Assembly (NCBI GenBank): GCA_009379825.1
Contig: WHTA01000032.1
Coordinates: 1 to 56,972 of the forward strand
DNA length: 56,972 nucleotides
Direction: 5' to 3'
Source: Streptosporangiales bacterium
GTDB taxonomy: Bacteria; Actinomycetota; Actinomycetes; Streptosporangiales; WHST01
The translations under genes were made by a program, and so were the position numbers. Below, piece by piece: positions 3,061 to 51,504 of the stretch. Position 1 is the first letter of the stretch, and the number at the start of each line of letters is the position of its first letter. Below the pieces are notes generated by a model. It searched no databases. It saw only the letters and a program-made list of their open reading frames with translations, and was not told where the DNA came from.

Positions 3061-5885
3061 AGCTGGCTCGCGATGACGTCAGGCGTCGCGGGGATCGGCT
3101 CGCGGCCGATCACGACACGTTCCTCCGCGCCGATCAGCCCGAGGTCGGCGAGGATGTCGGCGGCGGCGAGCCAGCACTCCCGGCCACCGATGCCCAGGTC
3201 GTGCAGCGCCATGCCGAGCCCCCACAGGTGCTCGGCCTCCCAGTAGGTGCCCGCGTAGTCAGCCGACCGTCCCCGTTCGAGCACCTCCCTGAAGGTACGC
3301 ACGGCCGTACGTAGCTCGCCGGCGAGCCGGAACGCCTCGGCCATGTTGCCGAGCGCGATCAGCTCGGTCCGCCAGCTGCTCGCCTCGCGCGCCATCGCCA
3401 CGCTCTTCTCGTGTGCCGCGATGGCGTCGTCGTACTGCCCGAGGCGCTGGTACGTCAGGCCGATCGCGCTCTGGCACATCGCCTGGCGGCCGCGGTCGCC
3501 GAGCTGCTCCGCCAGCGTCTCTGCGCGCTGCAGGCTCGCCAGCGCGTCGTCGTGGCGGCCGAGCGCCCGGCAGGCCACGCCGTGGCCGTGCAGGGTGAGG
3601 GCCTCACCGGTGAGGTGCCCCACCGCACGCCACATCTCCAGCGCATGCTCGAAGGGCGGGATGGCGTCGGCGACCCGGTCGAGCGCCGACAGCGCCCACC
3701 CGACGTCGTTGTGTGCGAGGCCGAGGTGGTGCGGGTCCTGCGTGCGCTCAGCCGCGCGCCGGACGATCTCAGACACCACCAGCTGCTCCCGCCACCTGCC
3801 GCGGTTCTCCAGCGGCATGTCAAGCGCGACCGCCAGGCTCACCGCGACGGCCGGCTCGTCGCCGACCGCCGCCTGCTCGGCCGCGAGCAGCAGGTTCTCC
3901 CGCTCCGCCTCGATCCACGCGTTGACCTCTGGCACCGACGACAGGGCGACGCCGGGATGCACCAGCTCGACCGGCACGAGCTCGAGGCGCCAGCGGTAGC
4001 ACGGCGCGACGACCATCGCCGCGGTGTGCGCAGTGGCGACGTAGCAGTGCATCGCCCGGCGCAGGGCGGCGGCGCACCCGCGCCGACCGTCCTCGACCTC
4101 GGCGAGCTCCCTGGCGAACAGCCGGAGCAGGTCGTGCAGCCCGTAGCGCTCCCCGGTGCGGGTGGCCAGCTGCGCGGCGACCAGCTCGCCCAGCAGGTCC
4201 TCGGCCAGGGCGACGGGGACGTCCGCGAGCGCCGCGGCCACCTCGACGCTGACCGTCGAGCCGTCGAGCACGCCGAGCAGCCGGAACATCCGTGCCACCT
4301 CGGGGCGGTCGAGGTCCGCGTAGCTCACCGCGAAGCTCGCCCGTACGTCGTGGTCGTCGACGCGCAGCTCGCCCAGCCGCCGGCGTTCCACCGCCAGCCG
4401 TTCGACGAGCGCCTGCACCGACAGCGAGGGCCGCGCGGCGAGCCGCGCGCCCGCGATGGCGACGGCGAGCGGCAGCCGCCCGCACAGCCGCACCAGGTCG
4501 GCGGCGGCGCCGGCCTCCGCGTCCAACCGGTGCGGCCCGGCGATCCGCGCGAGCAGCTCCTCGGCCTCGGCCGCGGCCAGCACGTCCAGCTGGTGGTGCT
4601 CCGCGGTGTCGAGGGCGTCGAGCCTGCGCCTGCTCGTCACAAGCGCGGTGCTCGAATTGCCTGCGGGCAGCAACCTGCGCACCTGCGTGGCGTCCGCGGC
4701 GTCGTCGAGCACAACGAGCAGTCGCCGGTCGGCGGTCAGCTCCCTGAACCTGGCCACCGCCGTCTCCGCGTCGACGGGCACATCCGCGGCCGGCACCCCG
4801 AGCGACCGGAGGAACTGGGCGAGCACGTCATGGCCGCTGGGCGGCGTGGTGTGCGGCGTGGTGCCGTGCAGGTTGGCGTAGAGCTGGCCCTCGGGGAACT
4901 GGTCGGCGACGCGCTGCGCGACGGCGATCGCGAGCGCGGACTTGCCGACCCCGCCCGGCCCGCTGACGACGATCGGCCGACCGTCCGCGGCGGGCAACGA
5001 CGCGCTCAGCGCGGCCACCTCCGCCGTCCGCCCGGTGAAGGTGACGAGCGCGTTCGGCAACTCGGTGGGCACCGGCCGGCTGGGCGGGTCCTGGCCGGCG
5101 GGAGCGCCGGCCAGGACATGCGAGTCGCGCTCCCCGACGTCCATGTCCTCGTCGCCGAGCAGGATCCGCTGTTCCAGCTGCCGCAGCTCGGGCCCCGGCT
5201 CCACGCCGAGCTCGTCGACCAGCACCCGGCGCCCCTCGCGGTAGACCTCGAGCGCGTCCGCGGCGCGTCCCGACCTCGCCAGCGCCACCATCAGCTGACC
5301 GCGCAACCGCTCGCGGTACGGATGGGCACCGACCGCGGCGGTCAGCTCCCCGATCAACGGCACGTGCCCGCCGCGGTCCAGCTCGAGCCGTGCGCGCTCC
5401 TCCACGATGGTCAGCCACAGCTCCTCGAACCGCGTCGCGGCAGCCGCGACCAACGAACTGTCCAGCCCGGCAAGCACCGGGCCGCGCCACCGCCGCTGTG
5501 CGGCGGCGAGCAGGTCGACGGCCTCGCCGGTACGTCCTGCGGCAGCCGCCGCACGTGCCTGCTCCACGAGGCTCTCCGCCTCGTACGCGTCGACCCGCAC
5601 CGCGTCCCTGCGCAGCCGGTAGCCGCCCGGCACGGTGTCGATGACGGCGGTACCGAACGCCTTGCGCAACGTCGAGACGTGGATGGACAGTTGTGCGCGC
5701 AGCGACGTCGGCAGCTCTGCGCCCCACACCGCCTCCGCCAACCGCTCGGTCGACACCGGGTGGCCCCCGTCGAGCACGAGCGTGGCGAGGAGCACCTGCG
5801 GTCGCTGCCCACCGAGCCGAATCGGGCAGCCCTCGACGAGCACCTCGAGTGGCCCGAGAATCCGGCAGTCCGGCCGGTCCGTCAA
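3057..5885 (-). CDS. AfsR/SARP-family transcriptional regulator with NB-ARC and TPR domains
   Basis: This is a 942-aa regulator. Residues 1-95 form an OmpR-type winged helix (LSIHVSTLRKAF, GGYRL). Residues 98-243 form the bacterial transcriptional activator domain. A P-loop GPGGVGKS lies at 309-316, Walker B LLVVLDDAAD follows, and TPR repeats fill roughly the last 300 residues. Large SARPs of this type bind direct repeats near promoter -35 boxes and are gated by nucleotide binding. The TTG start at 5885 is supported by GGAGG 8 nt upstream. It is a paralogue of the next gene downstream, with a 4-bp overlap. It is transcribed away from the NHL gene at 6081, and those genes are the obvious candidate targets (inference). 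Confidence 0.9.
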   Translation of the reverse strand: MTDRPDCRILGPLEVLVEGCPIRLGGQRPQVLLATLVLDGGHPVSTERLAEAVWGAELPTSLRAQLSIHVSTLRKAFGTAVIDTVPGGYRLRRDAVRVDAYEAESLVEQARAAAAAGRTGEAVDLLAAAQRRWRGPVLAGLDSSLVAAAATRFEELWLTIVEERARLELDRGGHVPLIGELTAAVGAHPYRERLRGQLMVALARSGRAADALEVYREGRRVLVDELGVEPGPELRQLEQRILLGDEDMDVGERDSHVLAGAPAGQDPPSRPVPTELPNALVTFTGRTAEVAALSASLPAADGRPIVVSGPGGVGKSALAIAVAQRVADQFPEGQLYANLHGTTPHTTPPSGHDVLAQFLRSLGVPAADVPVDAETAVARFRELTADRRLLVVLDDAADATQVRRLLPAGNSSTALVTSRRRLDALDTAEHHQLDVLAAAEAEELLARIAGPHRLDAEAGAAADLVRLCGRLPLAVAIAGARLAARPSLSVQALVERLAVERRRLGELRVDDHDVRASFAVSYADLDRPEVARMFRLLGVLDGSTVSVEVAAALADVPVALAEDLLGELVAAQLATRTGERYGLHDLLRLFARELAEVEDGRRGCAAALRRAMHCYVATAHTAAMVVAPCYRWRLELVPVELVHPGVALSSVPEVNAWIEAERENLLLAAEQAAVGDEPAVAVSLAVALDMPLENRGRWREQLVVSEIVRRAAERTQDPHHLGLAHNDVGWALSALDRVADAIPPFEHALEMWRAVGHLTGEALTLHGHGVACRALGRHDDALASLQRAETLAEQLGDRGRQAMCQSAIGLTYQRLGQYDDAIAAHEKSVAMAREASSWRTELIALGNMAEAFRLAGELRTAVRTFREVLERGRSADYAGTYWEAEHLWGLGMALHDLGIGGRECWLAAADILADLGLIGAEERVVIGREPIPATPDVIASQL

Positions 5886-17975: not shown

Positions 17976-18373
17976 GCGGACGAGCCAGCCTGTAAGCCGG
18001 ATTCTGTCGCGCGGACCTGGGTCCGCGCGGGCGGCCATCCATCTAGGGCTGCCGTTGCCGACAGCCTCCTGCAGCCTACCCGCAGGCTCGGGCGGGGCCG
18101 CCCTCGAACGCCTGCGCAGGCCCAGGCTTCGCCTGAGCCCTCTTGGCCTTGCTCCGGGTGGGGTTTACCGAGCCGTCCGGGTCACCCCGGACGCTGGTGG
18201 TCTCTTACACCACCGTTTCACCCTTACCGCTGCGGCGTACCGCACCGGCGGTCTGCTTTCTGTGGCACTTTCCCGCGGGTCACCCCGGGTGGGTGTTACC
18301 CACCACCCTGCCCTGCGGAGTCCGGACTTTCCTCGTGGACGGATCCACGCGACCGCCCGGCTGGCTCGTCCGC
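17976..18373 (-). ncRNA. rnpB: RNase P RNA, bacterial type A
   Basis: The minus strand shows the conserved hallmarks: the 5' P1 strand GCGGACGAGCCAG pairing with the 3' strand CTGGCTCGTCCGC, the 5' core GAGGAAAGTCCGGACTCC, GAAACGGTGGTGTAAGAGACC, and the 3' GAATCCGGCTTACAGGC. About 398 nt, normal for type A. It is the catalytic RNA for tRNA 5'-end maturation, acting with RnpA encoded elsewhere. The ends are set from the P1 helix and may be off by a few bases. Confidence 0.95.
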
Positions 18374-18400: not shown

Positions 18401-19042
18401 CTAGTTGTTCCCCGTCCCGTTCGCTTCGGCCGCACAGTCCGGCCGGAACGCGAACCCGGTGATCCAGCGCGTGGCGAGCTCCGCCGCCTCACCGACGCTC
18501 AGCCCGAGCTGCGGCACGAACGACACCCAGCTCTGGTAGCTCGTCGCCGTGTACGCCACCGCGACCGCGTCGTCCAGCGGCACCCGCAGCTGCCCGCACT
18601 CCTCCGCTTTCGCCAGCACCACGCGCAGGTAGCGCAGCCGCAGCTCCCTGCCCTCGTTGAGCGCCTCGTCGAGCGTAGCGGAGCCGCGGACGCTCATCAC
18701 CGCGTCCAGCGTGTGCTCGATCCTGGCGAGCTCCGCGTACCACCGCGCGATGAACGTTCGCAGCAGCTCCAGCGGCGGCATCTCGTCGAGCTCCGTACGG
18801 TCCGGACGCAACGCGGCGAACCGCTTCGACACGGCGGTCATCGTCGCGACGATCAACTTCTCCGCCGAAGGGAAGTGGTTGTACACGGTACGCACGGCGA
18901 CGTCCGCGCGCCGCGCCACAGCCGTCATGGTCAGCCCGGCACTGCCGCGTTCGCGCAGCAACTCGGTAGCGGTCGAGATCAGCAGTTGTCGCGTACTCTC
19001 GCGCACCTGCGCTCGCTTGGCTTTCGCGTCGGTACGCGACAT
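18401..19042 (-). CDS. TetR-family transcriptional regulator
   Basis: 213 aa. Residues 15-62 are the TetR helix-turn-helix (TATELLRERGSAGLTMTAVA, ADVAVRTVYNHFPSAEKL); the C-terminal part is a ligand-binding helical domain. ATG 19042 follows GGAAGG by 5 nt. It lies 66 bp downstream of an MFS exporter on the same strand, the usual pairing for ligand-controlled efflux. It has its own palindrome and a -10-like TAAACT just upstream. Confidence 0.9.
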   Translation of the reverse strand: MSRTDAKAKRAQVRESTRQLLISTATELLRERGSAGLTMTAVARRADVAVRTVYNHFPSAEKLIVATMTAVSKRFAALRPDRTELDEMPPLELLRTFIARWYAELARIEHTLDAVMSVRGSATLDEALNEGRELRLRYLRVVLAKAEECGQLRVPLDDAVAVAYTATSYQSWVSFVPQLGLSVGEAAELATRWITGFAFRPDCAAEANGTGNN

Positions 19043-19061
19043 CGTTGCCTTCCGCGGTTCA

Positions 19062-19079
19062 TTAGGACTGCATGCCTAA
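19062..19079. promoter_or_regulatory. Palindrome upstream of the TetR gene, candidate operator
   Basis: TTAGG and CCTAA are inverted arms separated by 8 bases, 20-37 bp before the tetR start. They sit next to a minus-strand -10-like TAAACT at about 19082-19087. The size and place fit a TetR self-operator. This is inference from position only. Confidence 0.45.
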
Positions 19080-19108
19080 GTTTAGAAGACGAACGCTCCC
19101 CGACACCT

Positions 19109-20293
19109 TCAATGCGCGGAGCGTACAACTGCGGGTGACGTCAACCGCACGATCACCAGACCCGCCCCGACGAGGCCGCCGACGACCGCCACCGCGATCG
19201 CCACGCGATAGCCACCGCCGTCCAGAGCGACGCCGGCGAGCGCCGAACCGAGCGCGAAGCCGGCGCCGAACGCGGTAACCACCCAGGCGAACGCCTCCGT
19301 CACGGTGCCGGCCGGAGCGAGTGAGTCGACGAGCACCATAGCGGTCGCGAGCACCGACGGCAGTGCGATTCCACTCACGAACGCGAGCGGCAACGTCCCG
19401 GCCACGCCGGGCGCCAGGATGAGCGGAAGGTAACCGAGAGCGAGCGCCAGCAGCAGCCAGAGCAGCCGACGCGACGGGTCCCTGCTCGGTCGGACCGCCG
19501 TGTTCGCCACCCCACCGATGAGCGCGCCGAACGCGTTGGCAGCGATGAACCAGGCCGCCGATGAGCGTGTGCTCACCGCCTCGGCGTGCCCGGTGATCGC
19601 GACCGTGAACGTGCCGATGGTCAGCCCGACGAACGCCACCGCACACAACAGCCTGATCAGGGCGGCGGATCGCAACGGCCCGGCCCAGTGCCGTACCACA
19701 GCTTCGCCGCGCCACCGCCTGCTCGGCGCGGCGGACGCGAACACGACGGTGCCGGCGAGACACAGCACCGCGGCACCGAAGAGGCCACCGGCCGGTCCGA
19801 AGACGGCGACGCAGCCGAGCACGACCAGCGGACCGAAGGTGAAGATCAGCTCCTGCATGGCCGTGTCGAGCGAGTACGCAGCCTGCACGTCGGCACCGCG
19901 GAGCAGGTCCGACCACAGCACGCGCAGACACGGCTCCAGAGGCGGCGTGGCGAACCCGGCGAGCGCGACGGCCGCGGCGGCCGGCACCACCTGGCTGCCC
20001 ACGTCGAGGACGCCGACACAGAAGAACCCGACGGCCGAAGCGGCGGCGCTGCCGAGCAGCACCGGCGACTGGCGCCACCGGTCGACCGCACGGGCGAGGA
20101 CGGGCGCACCGACCGCCTGGCTCGCCGCGTACACCCCGGCGAGCACACCGGCGACCGCGTAGCCGGCACCGTGCGCCCGCGTGACGAGGACGATCGCCAA
20201 CGCCGCCATACCGGTCGGCAACCGACCGACGACCATCGAGAGGAGCAGCCGCGGCACCTGCTTCGTCGACAGGACGTTCGACAACGAACGCAT
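19109..20293 (-). CDS. MFS transporter, probable drug exporter
   Basis: 394 aa with about 12 hydrophobic helices. It begins with LLLSMVVGRLPTGMAALAIV and includes a loop-2/3 basic motif (ARAVDRWRQ). The likely role is proton-driven efflux across the cytoplasmic membrane; the substrate is unknown. ATG 20293 has GGAAGG about 9 nt upstream, but that site forms the 3' arm of a 15-bp hairpin, preceded by a 26-codon ORF. This suggests translational attenuation. A TetR gene follows on the same strand. Confidence 0.85.
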   Translation of the reverse strand: MRSLSNVLSTKQVPRLLLSMVVGRLPTGMAALAIVLVTRAHGAGYAVAGVLAGVYAASQAVGAPVLARAVDRWRQSPVLLGSAAASAVGFFCVGVLDVGSQVVPAAAAVALAGFATPPLEPCLRVLWSDLLRGADVQAAYSLDTAMQELIFTFGPLVVLGCVAVFGPAGGLFGAAVLCLAGTVVFASAAPSRRWRGEAVVRHWAGPLRSAALIRLLCAVAFVGLTIGTFTVAITGHAEAVSTRSSAAWFIAANAFGALIGGVANTAVRPSRDPSRRLLWLLLALALGYLPLILAPGVAGTLPLAFVSGIALPSVLATAMVLVDSLAPAGTVTEAFAWVVTAFGAGFALGSALAGVALDGGGYRVAIAVAVVGGLVGAGLVIVRLTSPAVVRSAH

Positions 20294-20298
20294 CGGAG

Positions 20299-20347
20299 AA
20301 CACCTTCCATCGCGTGGGACGAAGAACCTCGGGCGATGGAAGGTGTT
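20299..20347 (-). promoter_or_regulatory. 15-bp hairpin sequestering the MFS ribosome binding site
   Basis: On the mRNA (minus) strand AACACCTTCCATCGC pairs perfectly with GCGATGGAAGGTGTT across a 19-nt loop. The second arm contains the GGAAGG Shine-Dalgarno of the MFS gene and ends 5 nt before its ATG. In this fold ribosomes cannot load. The stop codon of the leader ORF overlaps the first bases of the first arm. This is the layout of translation attenuators controlling antibiotic-resistance genes such as erm and cat. Confidence 0.75.
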
Positions 20348-20426
20348 ATGGACGCAGGTCGCCGCGCTCGTGGTCCAGGCCGTAAAGCGGCAACGGCGGG
20401 GTGCACCACGCGGCGACGGACAGCAT
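20346..20426 (-). CDS. Putative leader peptide upstream of the MFS exporter
   Basis: 26 codons: MLSVAAWCTPPLPLYGLDHE and then RGDLRP, followed by TAA. The stop lies at the base of the attenuator hairpin. A -10-like TAGTCT is 7 nt upstream of the ATG and no clear Shine-Dalgarno is present, so the message may be leaderless. The run CTPPLPLYG is proline-rich, which would slow ribosomes. A ribosome stalled near the end would disrupt the hairpin. Too short for homology arguments; supported only by its placement. Confidence 0.45.
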   Translation of the reverse strand: MLSVAAWCTPPLPLYGLDHERGDLRP

Positions 20427-20440
20427 GCGCCGAGACTAGC

Positions 20441-51399: not shown

Positions 51400-51457
51400 T
51401 GGGAAACCTCCTGGTCAGAGGTTAGGCCAACACGCACCGCTACGACCCCAAAGGGCG

Positions 51458-51496
51458 ACCTGCCGGGCCCAAAGCTCAGCTTTGGGCCCGGCAGGT
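51458..51496. terminator. 19-bp perfect hairpin terminator
   Basis: ACCTGCCGGGCCCAAAGCT and its exact inverse surround a single C; in practice AGCTC-AGCT opens to a small loop. It lies between the glycerophosphodiesterase 3' end and the start of the oxidoreductase operon, 59 bp before the latter's start. It ends the upstream transcript and isolates the operon's promoter. Confidence 0.8.
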
Positions 51497-51504
51497 CAAC
51501 AGCG

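Follow-up and report, generated by a model that had tools for sequence, protein, structure and literature searches.

How is the exporter gene on the minus strand of this DNA controlled, and does the short ORF that precedes it take part in the control? The initial annotation of the 56,972-nt stretch analysed here (the window) had proposed a translational attenuator, in which a 26-codon ORF runs into one arm of a perfect 15-bp stem and the exporter's GGAAGG lies in the other arm. All of these elements were found, and the position of GGAAGG, 9 nt before the exporter ATG, was confirmed on the minus strand. By contrast, the TAGTCT box, said to lie 7 nt before the leader ATG, is 6 nt away from it. 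Read along the minus strand, the order is TAGTCT, 6 nt, leader ATG, TAA, 5' arm, loop, 3' arm and MFS ATG, and the features of the locus are as follows:

20433..20438, minus strand: -10 element TAGTCT, 6 nt 5' of the leader ATG, predicting a leaderless transcript from or next to this ATG
20346..20426, minus strand: leader ORF MLSVAAWCTPPLPLYGLDHERGDLRP-stop, 26 codons, predicted arrest or sensor peptide, C-terminal core kept at the protein level
20333..20347, minus strand: 5' arm of the stem, AACACCTTCCATCGC, starting inside the leader stop codon TAA (from sequence and folding)
20343-20338, minus strand: anti-Shine-Dalgarno CCTTCC within the 5' arm (from sequence)
20299..20313, minus strand: 3' arm of the stem, GCGATGGAAGGTGTT (from sequence and folding)
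20308-20303, minus strand: Shine-Dalgarno GGAAGG of the MFS gene, within the 3' arm, 9 nt before the MFS ATG (20293)
19109..20293, minus strand: MFS exporter gene, 394 aa, the presumed regulated gene (Pfam MFS_1, E 2.3e-21), its homologues in relatives being preceded by the same leader
18401..19042, minus strand: TetR-family regulator gene downstream of the MFS gene (TetR_N match), a genus-specific companion outside the conserved module

The inverted repeat at the leader end is perfect over its 15 bp and encloses a loop of 19 nt. It is the second-longest perfect stem of the window (loops of 3-40 nt), and the longest perfect stems in ten windows simulated with a first-order Markov model measured 10-13 bp. 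RNA folding of the leader-hairpin region gave -72.6 kcal/mol (z = -5.0), a value as low as which was reached by none of 200 shuffled sequences. A strong hairpin in a 5' region could also act in transcription attenuation or as an intrinsic terminator. However, the 3' arm is followed by TTCTCCGATG, which contains no T run, and the relatives conserve pairing to the Shine-Dalgarno sequence, not a GC hairpin with a U tract, so that we regard control at the level of transcription as extremely improbable; an intrinsic terminator was rejected for the absence of a U tract after the stem. The longest perfect stem of the window, 19 bp with a 3-nt loop at 51457-51497 (GACCTGCCGGGCCCAAAGC-tca-GCTTTGGGCCCGGCAGGTC), is terminator-like, yet also devoid of a T run. 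An inverted repeat near the -10 box of the window, TCAGGC-5-GCCTGA, is a weak operator candidate only.

The MFS protein has no NCBIfam equivalog, its family assignment stopping at MFS_1, and no solved structure in the PDB was matched to it by sequence. Upstream of the leader and the MFS gene lies a gene encoding a bifunctional RNase H/acid phosphatase. The MFS-TetR pair (18401-20293) sits between this gene and the RNase P RNA gene rnpB (17977-18368), which is 32 nt away from the end of the TetR gene. RNase P RNA and one tRNA are the only Rfam matches above the gathering score in the window, none being located at the attenuator. The downstream TetR gene had been suggested to form a second control layer, but a TetR gene adjoins the MFS gene only in the window and in one congener locus (L003/L130, 49% identity), and it would be at most a local addition to the attenuator. 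Around the leader-MFS loci of the relatives, no conserved gene neighbourhood was detected in 13 contexts, which suggests that the module is stand-alone.

The closest homologue of the MFS protein, 70% identical, is encoded by a genome of the same genus (G001), in which the leader VTNRAWVCPPLPLYGSDHERGDLRP is followed by CCTTCCTTCGA ... TCGAGGAAGG ahead of the MFS start. The congener keeps the stem, with flanking pairs changed on both sides and with divergent loop and flank sequences. In a third congener (G002), the MFS gene (67% identity over 181 aa) starts directly behind another gene, without any leader. The recurrence of the leader and of a hairpin with another stem sequence in the congener, and that of the leader in more than 60 other genomes, indicate that this arrangement is beyond chance. 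The congener leader ORF (L130, about 4720-4770) also carries its own strong hairpin, CACTGCCGT-TGT-ACGGCAGTG, across the LPLYG codons, possibly a second structure of this mRNA.

Searches with the peptide matched one order-level relative and two further families. A profile search then detected the leader in 61 of the 201 genomes of one large family (f39), with E values of about 1e-15 to 1e-7, whereas re-searching 395 class-level and 201 order-level genomes gave four and three matches, respectively. The leader is thus frequent in f39 and only scattered in other groups. Within this family, leader and MFS gene occur together in 60 genomes, the leader alone in 1, the MFS gene alone in 9 and neither in 131 (Fisher 3e-40, an optimistic p-value as related genomes are not independent). 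In the MFS copies without a leader that were inspected, the start codon either follows a promoter-like box at a short distance or comes immediately behind another gene. In total, 66 leader-bearing loci were examined, namely that of the window and 65 further ones: 61 of them (window included) lie upstream of a gene of the MFS family, 4 upstream of an adenosine-deaminase-family (ADA) gene (L116, L121, L132 and L193), and 1 is an orphan. One genome (G663) possesses two copies of the leader, one before an MFS gene and one before a deaminase gene. The orphan leader (G782, L139/L207) is well conserved, in a remnant-like locus that has lost the MFS gene; downstream of it, an apparent gene remnant precedes a gene for a HAD-family-like hydrolase. 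The peptide had no match in a plasmid collection, and a phage collection yielded a single partial match at chance level. Lack of conservation in relatives had been named at the outset as one of the findings that would speak against an attenuator; leader and pairing recur widely, and this conservation argues strongly for translational attenuation.

The C-terminus of the leaders follows the consensus W-x-T-P-x-LPLYG-x-D-H-E-R-x-D-F/L-A-P-stop. Among 64 distinct leaders, the residues L-P-(L/I)-Y-G-x-D-x-x-R-x-D are invariant and W, P, H, A and P nearly so, whereas the codons for Leu, Pro, Thr, Asp, Arg and Tyr vary synonymously. Invariant residues encoded by drifting codons indicate that the amino-acid sequence of the leader is under selection as a peptide. 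The N-terminal part is variable in length and sequence, and the shortest candidate, a deaminase-type leader, may have only 18 residues (MIKLPLYGSDRERGDLAP). Five leaders extend 2-25 residues past Ala-Pro, and the stop codon therefore appears not to be essential.

Of 65 homologous loci, 62 have a TANNNT box 6-7 nt ahead of the leader start, compared to 0 of 1300 control positions. The commonest start codon of the leaders is GTG, and they have no Shine-Dalgarno sequence of their own, for which a -10 box 6-7 nt from the start leaves no room. In mycobacteria, transcripts beginning with ATG or GTG are efficiently translated, and a -10 box in place of a Shine-Dalgarno sequence marks leaderless genes (PMC4633059). 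Given the position of the box, the leader is probably translated from a leaderless mRNA.

The RNA at the leader end shows a second layer of constraint. In f39, the Phe-Ala-Pro codons TTC GCT CCC provide the stretch TCGCTCCC, which can base-pair with the gene's Shine-Dalgarno region, GGGAGCGA; in most loci this gene starts 48-72 nt after the leader stop. The final Ala codon is GCT in 50 of 62 leaders (81%) compared to 2.4% in the downstream genes, and the final Pro codon is CCC in 59 of 63 against a background of 21.9%. GGAGC is found in the RBS of 45 of the 51 loci with GCT but in only 1 of the 14 without it (Fisher 2e-8, a value made optimistic by the relatedness of the loci). In the deaminase loci the pairing is kept with changed letters, e.g. 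TCGCTTCG with CGGAGCGA in L193, and in the window's genus the anti-Shine-Dalgarno is shifted to just behind the leader stop codon. In 62% of the loci, the best helix joining leader end and RBS measures at least 8 bp, compared to 12% of shuffled sequences and 9% of gene-internal controls. These patterns argue that the RNA is under selection besides the peptide and that the RBS is sequestered, as modelled, by pairing with the end region of the leader. Several loci with gaps over 80 nt lack a simple short-range stem. In six loci (L160, L183, L186, L187, L188 and L189), 96-518 nt separate the leader from the MFS start; in this subgroup the final Ala codon is mostly GCG or GCC and the RBS does not contain GGAGC.

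Strong conservation at the protein level would equally be expected if the leader were a small protein with a function of its own, perhaps as a partner of the exporter, and the RNA pairing were incidental. That the rare codons GCT-CCC are matched to the Shine-Dalgarno sequence, that the same pairing logic precedes an unrelated enzyme and that a leader of only 18 residues is enough at one ADA locus all speak against this possibility, to which we give scarcely any probability. Plain translational coupling is a further possibility, which we consider unlikely: each ribosome on the leader would briefly open the stem, setting a basal level or reporting general translation, with neither inducer nor arrest. 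Indeed, the last leader codons are the anti-Shine-Dalgarno in most relatives, so that passing ribosomes must melt the stem. Coupling would, however, constrain the RNA of the 3' end and not an invariant LPLYGxDxxRxD that lies upstream of the pairing and drifts freely at synonymous positions; moreover, most loci have 48-72 nt between the leader stop and the gene start, a great distance for reinitiation.

Where the ribosome would have to be held for translational attenuation was addressed by positioning a ribosome on every leader codon in turn and folding the RNA that lies 3' of it, in the 52 loci with short gaps (gaps >80 nt, present at 12 MFS loci and 1 ADA locus, lie outside the model). The Shine-Dalgarno sequence is predicted to be paired in the free RNA of these loci, with a mean unpaired probability of 0.04. 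The values with a ribosome in place depend on the edge of its footprint, assumed to lie 14 nt from the first P-site base: in f39, the RBS becomes partly accessible once the P site has reached the last six codons or so; in the window, 0.32 is reached with the P site on the last codon and a weak 0.07 on the last but one; in the congener, the RBS opens (about 0.55) within the last two or three codons. Opening is only partial in this model, about 0.24 unpaired on average, alternative pairings remaining. If the stall point is homologous, modelling thus places it on the last two residues of the leaders, the P site being occupied by Ala (Arg in the window's genus) or Pro. The initial annotation had placed the stall at the Pro-rich CTPPLPLYG, which does not agree with a hairpin that, in the model, stays shut until the ribosome has reached the last codons. 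A stall at PPLPLYG was rejected by the accessibility modelling, which leaves the RBS paired.

The same result bears on slow decoding at this Pro-rich segment of the leader and on its relative, attenuation through amino-acid supply or tRNA charging. In favour of these readings stand the Pro-rich segment itself and the frequent occurrence of small leaderless ORFs in mycobacteria (PMC4633059). With the ribosome at PLYG, the RBS stays closed in the window, in the congener and in most relatives. The leader, furthermore, contains no run of a single codon and its conserved residues are diverse, and we hold both variants to be very improbable.

Taken together, these results make it likely that leader and hairpin form a translational attenuator whose RBS is freed by a ribosome held at the leader end, probably upon induction by a drug. 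Transcription would start at the leader start codon and yield a leaderless mRNA as the template for leader translation. After termination and release of the ribosome, the RNA of the leader end would pair with the Shine-Dalgarno sequence of the MFS gene and switch it off. A ribosome held with its P site on Arg25 or Pro26 (Ala-Pro in relatives) would instead cover the anti-Shine-Dalgarno, so that the stem could not fully form and the exporter would be translated. Most probably the hold would be exerted by a small molecule acting with the nascent chain LPLYGxDHERxD(F/L). A ribosome-targeting antibiotic appears the likeliest inducer, since the controlled genes encode an exporter and, in those genomes where an adenosine-deaminase-family enzyme would replace the MFS protein under the same leader, a possibly detoxifying enzyme; resistance would then be the output. 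Chloramphenicol and linezolid favour Ala as the penultimate residue (PMC8987054), a preference that fits the A-P of the relatives but not the R-P of the window's genus.

The leader-linked deaminase displays, in its translation, the HxH, HAGE, GHG and STDDP motifs of the family; it scores above the general aden_deam cut-off and below that of its nearest subfamily model. Its link to the leader hints at a nucleoside inducer, and one leader before both exporter and deaminase points to a shared inducer. It is a tentative and rather doubtful extension of this idea that LPLYGxDHERxD(F/L)AP acts as a drug-dependent arrest peptide not described so far, which senses a ribosome inhibitor of the adenosine-like nucleoside type and controls defences by export or deamination. 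The leader also offers a handle for tests, as a reporter could reveal the compound sensed and hence what the MFS protein and the deaminase protect against.

Leader control of the antibiotic type is exerted on resistance genes by the erm and cat attenuators (the ermC, catA86 and cmlA leader peptides), and the classic erm and cat leaders have their own Shine-Dalgarno sequence. The present family resembles them in its short conserved leader ORF, in a stem that hides the RBS of a resistance-type gene and in a geometry that would free this RBS upon a stall at a defined leader codon. It differs in that its leader is predicted to be leaderless, without a Shine-Dalgarno sequence, that the leader codons are often themselves the anti-Shine-Dalgarno and that the predicted stall point is at the very C-terminus. 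Mycobacteria possess polycysteine leaderless attenuators, whereas the present family has neither poly-Cys nor another repeated codon and is distinguished by a strongly conserved peptide and an RBS hidden by pairing with the leader end. It resembles the mycobacterial leaderless small ORFs (PMC4633059) in that, in high-GC actinobacteria, a small leaderless ORF with an RTG start precedes a gene. The arrest peptides TnaC and SecM share with it conserved C-terminal residues, a Pro at or next to the stop codon and a spaced Trp. Nevertheless, Trp and Pro are 12 residues apart in TnaC and 19 here, Trp is absent from 3 of 4 ADA-type leaders, and the downstream genes are neither tna-like nor sec-like. 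To our knowledge, the LPLYG peptide has no recognised similarity to known leaders. In the open-access literature searched, no paper contained PPLPLYG, none with LPLYG was relevant and the peptide family was not found. It is a widespread new leader-peptide family, of which these papers held no description, for a known kind of regulation; it adds a conserved member with a precise predicted stall site to a small known set, and it resides in actinobacteria, the main antibiotic producers.

MFS homologues of Actinomadura, Streptomyces, Saccharopolyspora and other named genera are without the leader, and several of them have operator repeats of the TACGTATGAC type in its place. One or two such operator-like repeats lie before the MFS start of the Actinomadura-type loci L005, L006, L034, L035, L040, L068 and L084. 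The divergent neighbour gene at Actinomadura-type loci resembles, by eye, that of a LacI-type regulator, and the same exporter family may be controlled in another way at these loci.
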